Shown piece by piece: positions 55,901 to 60,856 of a stretch of DNA of 64,000 nucleotides; the stretch's first letter is position 1; the number at the start of each line of letters is the position of its first letter. The stretch comes from an uncultured Pelagibacteraceae bacterium (GTDB taxonomy: Bacteria > Pseudomonadota > Alphaproteobacteria > Pelagibacterales > Pelagibacteraceae). The stretch spans positions 1 to 64,000 of the forward strand of contig CABZLO010000004.1 of the NCBI GenBank assembly GCA_902526595.1. Direction: 5' to 3'. The position numbers were made by a program, and so were the translations under genes. The notes beneath the pieces were generated by a model. The model saw only the letters and a list, made by a program, of their open reading frames with translations, was not told the DNA's origin and did no database searches.

Positions 55901-56464
55901 ATGAAAAAACTATATTTAATTATTCTATTACTATTCTCAATTCAAACCTTCAGTTCTGCTAACGAAAATTTATCCTCAGTTGATAATTTATTTCATATTG
56001 ATCACATGAATTCTCACAATGAAAATTTTGCTTTATATTTTAAAACACGAGAAAAAGCTATTTTGACAAAGGGAGAAGATAGTAATTATATAAATGATTA
56101 TCCTAAAGATCTTTATATTTACAATTACGAAACAAAAAGTTCTTTACCATTAATATCTCATGAATGGTTTCCAAGAAAAGCTAAATATTTTTTACAAGAA
56201 TATGATTTTCCAGTTTTTCCAGATGATTTTGCTTATTATTTATTAAAAGATAACAAAACACTTGTAATGATAAGTGCAGTTAAAAGCTTAAGAGCAAACT
56301 TTAAATTTGATATTATAGAGAAGAAATTAGAAATTTATCCAGTTAATGGAAAGTTTGATTTTATTATTTCTTCAATTGCAAAAGGTTGTGATCATTATGA
56401 TTTTAATGATAATTATAAATGCAGTTTTTACAAACCTTTAATCTCAAGCACTTTAATTAATTGA
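55901..56464 (+). CDS. Exported protein of unknown function
   Basis: Signal peptide MKKLYLIILLLFSIQTFSSANEN; 187 aa; no family recognised. Confidence 0.65.
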   Translation: MKKLYLIILLLFSIQTFSSANENLSSVDNLFHIDHMNSHNENFALYFKTREKAILTKGEDSNYINDYPKDLYIYNYETKSSLPLISHEWFPRKAKYFLQEYDFPVFPDDFAYYLLKDNKTLVMISAVKSLRANFKFDIIEKKLEIYPVNGKFDFIISSIAKGCDHYDFNDNYKCSFYKPLISSTLIN

Positions 56465-57374
56465 TTTGTGTAAAGGCTTCGGCAAACTTTTCAGCCTCAA
56501 AAATCTGAAGATCATCTTCTTTCTCCCCTAAACCAAGAGCAATAATTGGTAGCTTATATTTTTTAGCAACTGCTAGAAGAATACCACCTTTTGCTGTTCC
56601 ATCTAATTTTGTCATTATTAGTCCTGTAATGGGTATAATTTTATTAAATTCTTCAACTTGGTTGATTACATTTTGTCCTGAGGTAGCGTCTAAAACTAAA
56701 ATTACATCGTGAGGAGCTTCAGAGTCTATTTTTTTTGCTACGTTTGCAATTTTCTTGTATTCTTCCATTAAATTTTTTTTGTTTTGTAATCTTCCAGCAG
56801 TGTCTATTAAAACTTGATCGAATTGATTATTTACCGCCTCTTCTATTGCTTTATATGCCACTGAAGCTGGATCAGATCCTTGTGATGATTTAGTAATTGA
56901 AACATCTACCTTTTTTGACCAGTTTTCTAATTGTTCAATTGCTGCTGCTCTAAATGTATCTGATGCAGCAAGCATTACTTTGTTTCCATTGCCTTTAAAT
57001 ATTTTACTAATTTTTCCTATTGTAGTTGTTTTGCCAACTCCATTAACACCAGAAATAAGTATTGCGTTAAGTTTTTCTTTTTTTTTAAAAAATTCAAAAT
57101 TTTCTAAAGGTTTCATCAATTCGATTATATAATTTTTTAAAATAATATTTATTTCATCTGATGTATCTTTGTTTGGATCAATTTTAGTTTGGGAAACAAT
57201 TTCTCTAATTTCTGATGCAGCAGCAATACCAACATCTGATTGAATCAAATAATCTTCAATCATATCTAAAGTTTTGTCATCTATTTCTTTTTTAATTACA
57301 ATATTTTTTAAACCAGAACTAAATGCTGACGCGCTTTTCTTAAAACCAGATTTAAATTTATCAAAAATTCCCAT
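56457..57374 (-). CDS. ftsY: Signal recognition particle receptor FtsY
   Basis: NGVGKTTTIGKI, AASDTFRAAAIEQL, DTAGRLQNKKNLMEE, TKLDGTAKGG. Confidence 0.97.
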   Translation of the reverse strand: MGIFDKFKSGFKKSASAFSSGLKNIVIKKEIDDKTLDMIEDYLIQSDVGIAAASEIREIVSQTKIDPNKDTSDEINIILKNYIIELMKPLENFEFFKKKEKLNAILISGVNGVGKTTTIGKISKIFKGNGNKVMLAASDTFRAAAIEQLENWSKKVDVSITKSSQGSDPASVAYKAIEEAVNNQFDQVLIDTAGRLQNKKNLMEEYKKIANVAKKIDSEAPHDVILVLDATSGQNVINQVEEFNKIIPITGLIMTKLDGTAKGGILLAVAKKYKLPIIALGLGEKEDDLQIFEAEKFAEAFTQIN

Positions 57375-58198
57375 TAAATTTTTATGTTAATTTCTTTAAT
57401 ATCAGAAACGGGTCCTTTCATGTGAATACTGTCATTTTCATCAATAAATATTGATAACTTGCCAGTAGAAAACTCGATATCTACTTTATTATCTGAAAGT
57501 CCATTTCTTAATGCAGCAAAAGCAGTAGCACAAGCTGCCGTACCACAAGCCTTAGTAAGACCTGCTCCTCTTTCCCACACTTTAACTTTAATTAGTTCTT
57601 TATTAACAACTGTTGCTAAAGTGACATTACATTTTTCTGGAAACAATGGATGGTGTTCAATTTGTGGTCCAATTTTTTTTATTTCAAAATTTTCATTATT
57701 CTCAACAAAAAAAATTATGTGTGGGTTTCCAACATTTACTGCTGTACCTCCAGTATGATTATTATTATTTATATCAGTTATTTTTATATTAAGGTTATTG
57801 GTATCCGTTTCTTCTGAAAGTGGAATTTCATTCCACTCTGTTCTACCTTTTCCAATTTCTGTGGAGACTACTTTTTTTCCTAATATCTCAGATTTTAAAT
57901 CACCAGATTGTGTAGTTAAAGTAACTAATGATTTATTATTTTCTTTAGATAACAAATCTGCAACACATCTTGTTCCATTTCCACATGCTCCAGAAGTTCC
58001 ACCATCAGAATTATAAAATTCTAGAGATGCATCAGAACTATCATTTTTAGTTATTAATATTAATTGATCACAACCTATAAATTCTCTATCGCAAATCTTA
58101 ATAATTTGCTCTTTGCTTAAATTAGTAATTTTTTGCCTATTATCTATAATGACAAAATCATTACCTAAACCATCCATTTTAAAAGCTTTGATATCCAT
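57374..58198 (-). CDS. dapF: Diaminopimelate epimerase
   Basis: MDGLGNDFVIID, YNSDGGTSGACGNGTRC, ERGAGLTKACGTAACATAFAA. Confidence 0.97.
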   Translation of the reverse strand: MDIKAFKMDGLGNDFVIIDNRQKITNLSKEQIIKICDREFIGCDQLILITKNDSSDASLEFYNSDGGTSGACGNGTRCVADLLSKENNKSLVTLTTQSGDLKSEILGKKVVSTEIGKGRTEWNEIPLSEETDTNNLNIKITDINNNNHTGGTAVNVGNPHIIFFVENNENFEIKKIGPQIEHHPLFPEKCNVTLATVVNKELIKVKVWERGAGLTKACGTAACATAFAALRNGLSDNKVDIEFSTGKLSIFIDENDSIHMKGPVSDIKEINIKI

Positions 58199-58249
58199 AT
58201 GTAGATATTTAACTTATTTATTGACTTTTTGAACCTCTATTATAGTTTG

Positions 58250-58356
58250 TTGGCGTTTCCGCAAAAATATTAACTTTGTGGTGTCTTTGGAAACAAAGAG
58301 ATCGACACTAGTCAGCGAGGCTTCGCCCACTAGTGCTATTACTGCTGTGCAAAAAT
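58250..58356 (+). promoter_or_regulatory. Candidate structured 5' leader RNA of ffh
   Basis: CTTTG-GAAA-CAAAG hairpin (58285-58298), enclosing TGGTGTC/GACACTA pairing, alternative CACTAGT/ACTAGTG stem (58306-58335), inner GCGA-GGCT-TCGC. Confidence 0.6.
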
Positions 58357-59715
58357 ATGTTTGAAAATTTGACAAATAAATTTGAAGAAATCTTTTCTTC
58401 TCTAAAAAAATCACCTTCACTTGATGAAGCTCAAGTTGATGAAGGTTTAAGAGGAATTAGGCAAGCTCTTTTAGAGGCTGATGTATCTTTAGAGGTTGCT
58501 AAAGATTTTATTGAAAAAGTTAAGCCAAAAGCTTTGGGTCAAGAGATTATTAGATCGACTTCACCAGGGGATATGGTTGTCAAAATTGTATACGATGAAC
58601 TTGTAAGTTTGTTGGGAGAGTCTAACAGCGATATAAATCTTAACGCAGTACCACCTGTCCCAATGATGTTGGTAGGACTTCAGGGTTCAGGTAAAACAAC
58701 AACAACCGCAAAACTTGCTAAGTACTTGGAGAACAACAAAAAGAAAAAAGTTATGATGGTAAGCTTAGACATTTATAGACCAGCGGCACAAGAGCAACTT
58801 AGATCTTTAGGGGAACAAAATAACATTTTAACCTTACCAATTGTTGAAGGGCAGCAACCAGCAGATATTTGTAGAAGAGCAATTGGTGCTGCTAATTTAA
58901 ATGGTGCTGAAATAATCCTTTTTGATACTGCTGGAAGAACTCAAATTGACTTACAGATGATGAGTGAGATTAAACAAATTGAAGGTGTAATTAATCCAAC
59001 AGAAACATTCCTAGTAGCAGACTCTTTAACAGGTCAAGTTGCAGCATCAGTTGCAAAGGAATTTAAAAATACAGTTAATTTATCAGGAATTATTTTAACT
59101 AGAGCCGATGGTGATGCTAGAGGTGGTGCTGCGGTCAGTATGAAATATGTTTCAAATGTTCCTATTAAATTTTTAGGAATAGGCGAAAAAATTGACAATC
59201 TTGAAGTGTTTCACCCTGACAGAATAGCTAACAGAATTCTTGGAATGGGAGATATAGTTTCTCTTGTTGAAAAAGCTGCTCAAGATCTTGGCGAAGAAAA
59301 TATTAAGAAAACTGAAGAAAATTTAAAAAAAGGTCAGTTTTCAATGGAAGATTATTTGGCTCAACTAAGACAAATGAAAAAAATGGGTGGCATTGAAGGA
59401 ATAATGTCATTTATGCCAGGAGTTTCAAAAATTAAATCTCAAATGGACTCAGCTGGAATTGATGAGAGAATTATTACTACAAATGAAGCTATTATTTTGT
59501 CTATGACAAAAAAAGAGAGAGAGAACCCAAAAATAATTGATGGTTCTAGAAAAAAAAGAATTGCTAATGGCTCTGGTACCAATCCAGCCACTATCAATAA
59601 ATTGTTAAAACAATTTAAAATGATGTCTGAAATGATGAAAAAGATGTCCAAAGGAAATATTAAGGGTATGTCTGATAAAGGAATACCACCAGAGCTATTT
59701 AACCAATTAAAATAA
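58357..59715 (+). CDS. ffh: Signal recognition particle protein Ffh
   Basis: [45 protein letters not shown], Met-rich M domain; ATG at 58357 preferred over GTG at 58333. Confidence 0.97.
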
Positions 59716-59729
59716 TAAAAGGAGAAGAT

Positions 59730-60155
59730 ATGTTAAAACTAAGATTATCAAGAGGAGGAACAAAAAAACGTCCAGTATATAAAGTCGTTGTAGCTGATAG
59801 TCGTTTTGCGAGAGACGGAAGATTTATTGAGAAGGTTGGATTTTTTAATCCTCTTTTACCCAAAGATAAAAAAGAAAGAGTAGGTCTTGAGGCCGAAAGA
59901 ATTAAATTTTGGCTTGGTCAAGGAGCTAAACCAACGACTAGAGTCGCGAGAATATTGGGAGAAAATGAATTAATGCCAATGCCTGTAAACGGTAATAACC
60001 CTAATAAAGCTATTCCGAAAAAAGAAAGGAATAAAAAAGAGGAAGATAAAACTGAAGCTCCTAAAGCAGACGCAGCAGCAGAAGCTCCAAAGGAAGAAGC
60101 TCCTAAAGCAGACGCAGCACCAGCAGCAGAAGCTCCAAAGGAAGAAAAAAAATAG
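59730..60155 (+). CDS. rpsP: 30S ribosomal protein bS16 with low-complexity C-terminal tail
   Basis: [40 protein letters not shown]; tail [33 protein letters not shown]. Confidence 0.97.
60054..60143 (+). repeat. Imperfect coding tandem repeat in rpsP (42-bp unit, then 48-bp unit)
   Basis: GAAGCTCCTAAAGCAGACGCAGCA...GAAGCTCCAAAGGAA occurs twice; second copy has a 6-bp CCAGCA insertion. Confidence 0.9.
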
Positions 60156-60169
60156 TTTAAAAATTATTT

Positions 60170-60856
60170 ATGTGGCAAGCTCAAGTGTTTACACTTTATC
60201 CAGAAGTTTTTCCTGGTCCTCTGTCAAAAGGATTATATGGAAAAGCTATGTCTAAAAAGTTATGGGATTTAAAGGTTGTTAACATAAGAGATGCAGCTGA
60301 AGATAAACATAAAACTGTAGATGACACACCTTATGGTGGTGGTTCAGGAATGTTACTAAAGGCTGATGTCCTTGCTAAATCATTAGATCAAAACAGAATT
60401 GAAGGTGAAAAAATTTTATATTTGTCTCCAAAAGGAAAAAAATTTGATCAAAGCTATGCAAAAAAATTGGCAACTGCAAAATCCTTATCACTTATTTGTG
60501 GTCATTTTGAAGGCGTTGACGAGAGAGTATTATCTACAAGAAATATAGAAGAAGTAAGTATAGGAGACTATGTTTTGTCTGGAGGCGAAATAGCTGCATA
60601 TGTTGTTATAGATAGTGTACTAAGGCTATTACCAGGGGTATTAGGAAATGATAATTCTAAGATCGAAGAAACTTTTGAAAATGGTCTATTAGAGTATCCG
60701 CAGTATACAAAACCTCAAATTTGGGAGGAAAAATCAGTACCAGATGTACTATTATCAGGTGATCATAGTAAAATTAAAGACTGGCGTTTATCTCAATCTG
60801 AGGCTATAACACGCGACCGAAGACCAGATTTGTGGGAAAAATATAAGAAGAACTAA
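60170..60856 (+). CDS. trmD: tRNA (guanine-N1)-methyltransferase
   Basis: [43 protein letters not shown]. Confidence 0.97.

Follow-up and report, generated by a model that had tools for sequence, protein, structure and literature searches.

A conserved structured leader RNA with its own promoter upstream of ffh in Pelagibacterales belongs to the known ffh RNA family

The gap between dapF and ffh in a 64,000-nt stretch of an uncultured Pelagibacteraceae genome (the whole of which is referred to here as the window) is predicted from its sequence to encode an RNA that is the ffh leader RNA, catalogued as RF01793, described as the ffh motif and known as Sm5 in Sinorhizobium. Its best explanation, to which we assign a probability of roughly 0.75, is a structured cis-acting 5' leader that lies immediately before ffh and has its own conserved promoter. 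The family has been known since 2009, and the additions made here are a fuller architecture, the promoter, a broader distribution and a competition between helices that can be tested and is not the one first proposed.

Identification of the ffh leader RNA

RF01793 (ffh) is the sole Rfam 15 match in the whole 64-kb window, and the match (58291-58344, plus strand; 54.2 bits against a gathering threshold of 35; E 1.6e-7) covers the full length of the model (positions 1-52 of 52). Rfam types RF01793 as an sRNA. A preliminary description of this DNA had named an existing Rfam match among the observations that would refute its reading, and RF01793 is such a match; the idea of a conserved structured leader before ffh held, the helices being present and the leader strongly conserved.

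Meyer et al. described the ffh motif in 2009 from the dapF-ffh gap of 'Candidatus Pelagibacter ubique', where it was drawn as one bulged hairpin in which two C residues are conserved (PMC2704228). It was found in several alphaproteobacterial orders, nearly always before ffh, was suggested to regulate this gene, and was reported absent from Rhodospirillales (PMC2704228). The features of that motif recur here: the two conserved C residues of the bulge are C58313 and C58328, which form a C.C mismatch in 104 of the 107 distinct Pelagibacterales leaders; the first pair of the hairpin (P4) is CG in all 107, its stem covaries, and the element is located directly upstream of ffh. RF01793 models only this 3' hairpin and begins at 58291, part-way through the GNRA loop of P3, the hairpin before it; judged by alignment, the conserved element is about twice the catalogued length.

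Locus and promoter

The divergent neighbour of ffh is dapF (57374-58198, minus strand; Pfam DAP_epimerase), beyond which lies ftsY (56457-57374; Pfam SRP54). The ffh gene itself (58357-59715, plus strand) starts with the AUG at 58357 and encodes a protein of 452 aa that carries all three SRP54 domains (Pfam SRP54, SRP54_N and SRP_SPB). A GTG at 58333 was considered as an upstream in-frame start of ffh and rejected, the extension being closed by a stop in relatives (e.g., L022). The predicted 5' leader RNA occupies 58252-58356 on the plus strand (~105 nt), as deduced from the position of the promoter and the AUG at 58357, and P4 ends 21 nt before this AUG. No Shine-Dalgarno sequence is visible before AUG 58357, in agreement with the preliminary description, and no intrinsic terminator was found in the leader. 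The segment 58240-58356 (117 nt) folds better than its shuffles (z -2.22). An earlier suggestion that the leader coordinates both SRP GTPases found no backing: no link between dapF-ftsY and the element was detected, and the element shares its strand with ffh, as does its promoter.

The leader promoter (58221-58248, plus strand) consists of TTGACT (58221-58226) followed by TATTATAGTTT, and this match is exact and unique in the window. The TTGACT..TATAGT pattern pointed out earlier at 58221-58246 is present, and it is almost invariant in the genus; a 40-nt stretch, TTTAACTTATTTATTGACTTTTTGAACCTCTATTATAGTTT, is likewise near-invariant within the genus, its core being unique in the 64-kb window. 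TTGAC was found in 148/148 Pelagibacterales loci, in nearly all of them 80-92 nt before P4; among 82 loci from other alphaproteobacteria, 79 have it within 130 nt of P4, where about 8 would be expected. From the position of the promoter, transcription is predicted to start near 58252-58255, which would place hairpin P2 close to the 5' end of the RNA.

Several features were also observed downstream of ffh. The genes rpsP and trmD adjoin (59730-60856) with no rimM between them; this genome lacks RimM (PF01782), as do 55/55 sampled genomes of its family, and 3/3 genomes of the sister family within the order have it. In ribosomal proteins S16 (59730-60155) and L19 (60858-61427), a long C-terminal tail that is enriched in A, E, K and P and contains EAPKEE-like repeats extends past the Pfam domain.

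Secondary structure and covariation

Three hairpins on the plus strand make up the leader. P2 (58259-58281) pairs CCGCAAA (58259-58265) with UUUGUGG (58275-58281); P3 (58284-58299) has the form UCUUUG-GAAA-CAAAGA with a GNRA tetraloop; and P4 (58306-58335) comprises 7 bp, a C.C mismatch (58313/58328), an A.C mismatch (58314/58327), a GCGA/UCGC stem and a 4-nt loop. All three (P2 as CCGCAAA/UUUGYGG and P3 as UCUUUG-GNRA-CAAAGA) are present in the 107 distinct Pelagibacterales leaders, the P3 loop being GAAA, GCAA, GUAA or GGAA in 62 of them. The helices listed in the preliminary description, including CUUUG-GAAA-CAAAG of P3 (58285-58298), CACUAGU/ACUAGUG (58306-58312 with 58329-58335) and GCGA/UCGC (58315-58318 with 58323-58326), could all be located; it passed over P2 and an extension of P3 that joins 58279-58282 to 58301-58304, and it lacked the Rfam match.

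Covariation was examined in a plain MAFFT alignment of 26 diverse leaders (A1), and by a tree null in which the same number of substitutions was replayed on the ffh codon tree in 2000 simulations. In A1, 96.4% of cells pair and 59 cells show changes on both sides compared with 17 in shuffles, a signal that is lost when partners are slid. P3 has changes on both sides at 6/6 pairs and P4 at two pairs, with 100% of P4 cells paired, and both exceed all 2000 simulations (p<0.0005 each). For P2, 94% of cells are paired and a GC/AU exchange occurs at 58261-58279, the tree null giving p=0.04 for double changes and p=0.07 for pairing; P2 is found in distant alphaproteobacteria too. An all-pairs scan of 106 close leaders, which has little power, returned a single pair below E 0.05, and this top-ranked pair belongs to P4 (E~0.007). 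Across Pelagibacterales, covariation was recovered strongly for P3 and P4 and more weakly for P2, and failed to appear for the outer helix proposed as a switch (see below). The part upstream of P4 has a mean folding z of -3.24 over the 107 Pelagibacterales leaders; the mean is -1.38 for other alphaproteobacteria and -0.1 for control windows. A closing helix (P1) that would join the 5' end to the tail preceding the AUG was rejected: native pairing beat swapped pairing only narrowly (p 0.008) and fell behind it in the order's other family, and the predicted start is downstream of a large part of the 5' strand.

Within 58313-58328, the pair beside the C.C mismatch in other alphaproteobacteria is A.C in 41 loci, C-G in 25, G.U in 6, U-A in 6 and G-C in 4. 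Because of this variety, the internal loop of P4 is more aptly described as a single C.C mismatch next to a fifth inner pair, which is frequently an A.C wobble; the C.C itself, seen in 82/82 of these loci, holds by construction, as the P4 finder used for them demands it, which is not the case for the 104/107 count in Pelagibacterales. A tail ~10 nt after P4 (58336-58349) is conserved across the class, with UU at +10/+11 in ~90% followed by a G-rich stretch, and is UGCUGG-like in Pelagibacterales.

Relation to SRP RNA

The view that the leader is not 4.5S RNA is borne out, as neither a match to the bacterial SRP RNA model (RF00169) nor its GGAAGNAGCC core was detected at this locus, and an SRP RNA candidate of this genome, with GGAAGCAGTC, is located on another contig (L002 1501-1597). 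For the same lack of a match, the leader was rejected as 4.5S RNA or as a mimic of the Ffh site of 4.5S RNA. The candidate on the other contig scores 37.4 bits, just below the Rfam cut-off of 40, and automatic annotation may miss it.

Distribution

RF01793 was detected in 47/61 genomes of the genus, in 182 of the 198 genomes of the order that are at least 80% complete, and in 80/289 of the class. A search for Ffh in the 16 negative genomes of the order either came back empty or turned up no more than FtsY or ffh fragments truncated by the end of a contig. As far as is visible these are assembly gaps, because no 5' end of ffh was found in any of them, and a real loss of the leader there was rejected on the same ground. 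So far as these searches detect it, the leader is present in every sampled Pelagibacterales genome with an assembled 5' end of ffh.

A DNA search of GTDB genomes with a P4 variant (GUCCGCGAG..UCGCGC) yielded at least 119 stretches, and among the matches listed 113/119 are directly upstream of ffh, most of the others being cut by the end of the stretch. The variant also precedes ffh in Rhodospirillales (Azospirillum picis, Niveispirillum irakense and Skermanella aerolata). Six of eight named P4-variant loci score below the Rfam cut-off; a model trained on Pelagibacterales leaders alone (R1) finds all eight with E below 0.0015 in 64 kb. R1 also matches 46/50 other alphaproteobacterial loci over its full length (E up to 0.005), where most of the 50 loci had been chosen via RF01793 and P4 contributes much of the score, so that these matches show the upstream part to be alignable and are not independent proof. 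An alphaproteobacterial ffh leader was also found on a contig labelled Phormidium willei, a cyanobacterium (L301), which is probably a contaminating contig.

Competing helices in the leader

It had been proposed that the leader switches between P4 and a mutually exclusive helix pairing UGGUGUC (58279-58285) with GACACUA (58304-58310). This helix can be drawn on paper only. Its four inner pairs are possible in most leaders, yet its outer pairs are broken in 19/26, 11/26 and 6/26 of them; the 26 leaders contain 0 cells with compensatory change and the helix does no better than in shuffles, and the comparison with the tree null gave 0 double changes (p=1.0). Where P4 changes from CACC/GGUG to CACU/AGUG or CAUC/GAUG, the upstream GGUG is unchanged, and the helix has an energy of -8.2 kcal/mol vs -25.8 for P2, P3 and P4 together (about 17 worse). 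It was rejected as a conserved feature, a switch built on it is hardly credible, and as the sole candidate for an anti-terminator it lacks compensatory change. Mutual exclusion survives in another form, between P2 and an extension of P3 that have a CGG in common. The P3 extension (58279-58304, plus strand) pairs UGGU (58279-58282) with AUCG (58301-58304) and excludes P2, and RNAalifold applied to A1 picked it, as (C/U)GGU with AUC(G/A), instead of P2. All four of its pairs are possible in 26/26 leaders, the outer pair 58279-58304 being CG in 19, UA in 6 and UG in one, a modest covariation (tree null p=0.02). The CGG that closes P2 is the same CGG used in the extension (CGGU/AUCG), and the P2 partner position covaries as well (GC in 19, AU in 6 and GU in one of the 26 leaders). 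At the triple 58261-58279-58304, a full exchange from G-C-G to A-U-A took place in two separate clades, and the source leader carries the intermediate, with G.U and U.G wobbles. The two folds differ by <2 kcal/mol in 80/107 leaders and by 0.9 in the source leader. Outside the order, the four pairs are possible in 18/71 alphaproteobacterial loci vs 5.5 in permutations, a rough comparison in that for some of the loci the P3 chooser selects long-loop stems that are implausible, and they include changed forms such as UGGU/AUCA and CGGC/GUCG. Together these observations support real pairing in both P2 and the P3 extension. Whether the leader then has two states, exchanging P2 for the extension on binding of a protein, on a change of temperature or on passage of a ribosome, is another matter: the shared CGG, the triple covariation and the near-equal energies speak for it, while there are just two independent full exchanges (p about 0.02-0.04), no expression platform was seen, and there are loci, L255 among them, where P2 lies apart from P3 and the two need not compete. 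Because two exchanges are few and non-overlapping hairpins occur in L255, such a switch can be offered as a hypothesis that we regard as unlikely. A still larger proposal, that promoter, P2, P3 and P4 constitute a class-wide bistable leader whose P2 competes with the P3 extension for CGG as an alphaproteobacterial feedback switch for Ffh, appears doubtful.

Possible mechanism and alternative explanations

As a cis-acting element, the leader may set the level of Ffh. Of the loci from other alphaproteobacteria, 42% have TTTT in the 10 nt that follow P4, compared with 3.1% of background windows and 2.8% of Pelagibacterales loci. In Sinorhizobium meliloti, the sm5 gap has a sigma-70 promoter and a predicted terminator, with an RNA of ~120 nt expected and small RNA enriched on arrays (PMC2573895), and deep sequencing identified Sm5/SmelC778 as an RNA of 115 nt (PMC2873474). 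The U-run after P4 and Sm5 suggest that in many relatives P4 and the U-run could act as a leaky intrinsic terminator that would release a small RNA of ~115 nt, read-through giving the ffh mRNA. In Pelagibacterales the U-run is lost, so that the mRNA would keep the leader in full. A protein, for which Ffh is the obvious candidate, may bind P4, which carries the C.C mismatch and lies 21 nt ahead of the AUG, and we infer that the Ffh level could be controlled in this way. The cis-acting leader is supported by the RF01793 match, the published motif at the same gene pair, the distribution, the covariation, promoter conservation, the U-runs after P4, Sm5, and the 'ffH leader RNA' in RNA-seq of Bartonella bacilliformis (PMC7717549). 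Against it are the missing terminator, the absence of a visible Shine-Dalgarno sequence to hide, and a P4 unlike the 4.5S site for Ffh; moreover, other alphaproteobacteria place P4 anywhere from 17 to about 120 nt ahead of the AUG, so that there is no fixed geometry with the start codon.

The discrete 115-nt Sm5, the small RNA enrichment and the U-runs in relatives would also suit a chiefly stand-alone, trans-acting small RNA placed before ffh by chance, which we consider rather unlikely in view of the position kept upstream of ffh (among the matches listed) and of Pelagibacterales leaders that have neither U-run nor terminator. The same want of a terminator hairpin with U-run, which a riboswitch or attenuator would use, leaves no expression platform visible; together with P2 at the predicted 5' end, this agrees with a passive leader whose 5' hairpins only shield the mRNA from decay or hold the start region open and have no regulatory function. 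Since the conserved unpaired AUCG, the C.C mismatch and the UUUGG-like tail suggest specific recognition, a purely passive role seems improbable. The means by which bacteria balance Ffh against 4.5S RNA are poorly understood, and the cis-acting leader is a candidate for such control across Alphaproteobacteria.

Comparison with known RNAs

Like the bacterial SRP RNA (4.5S, RF00169), the leader is an RNA tied to the SRP system; it differs in that P4 is unlike the site bound by Ffh, as was also noted by Meyer et al. (PMC2704228). Compared by description, without sequence alignment, Sm5/SmelC778 of S. meliloti has in common with it the gap between divergent dapF and ffh, a sigma-70 promoter, a length of ~115-120 nt and the ffh strand, whereas a predicted terminator is present there and none here. 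The closest likeness in form is to the ffh motif (RF01793), which shares P4, the gene, the gap and the organism group with this leader; it was drawn as a single bulged hairpin, to which the present leader adds P2, P3 and possibly an extension of P3.
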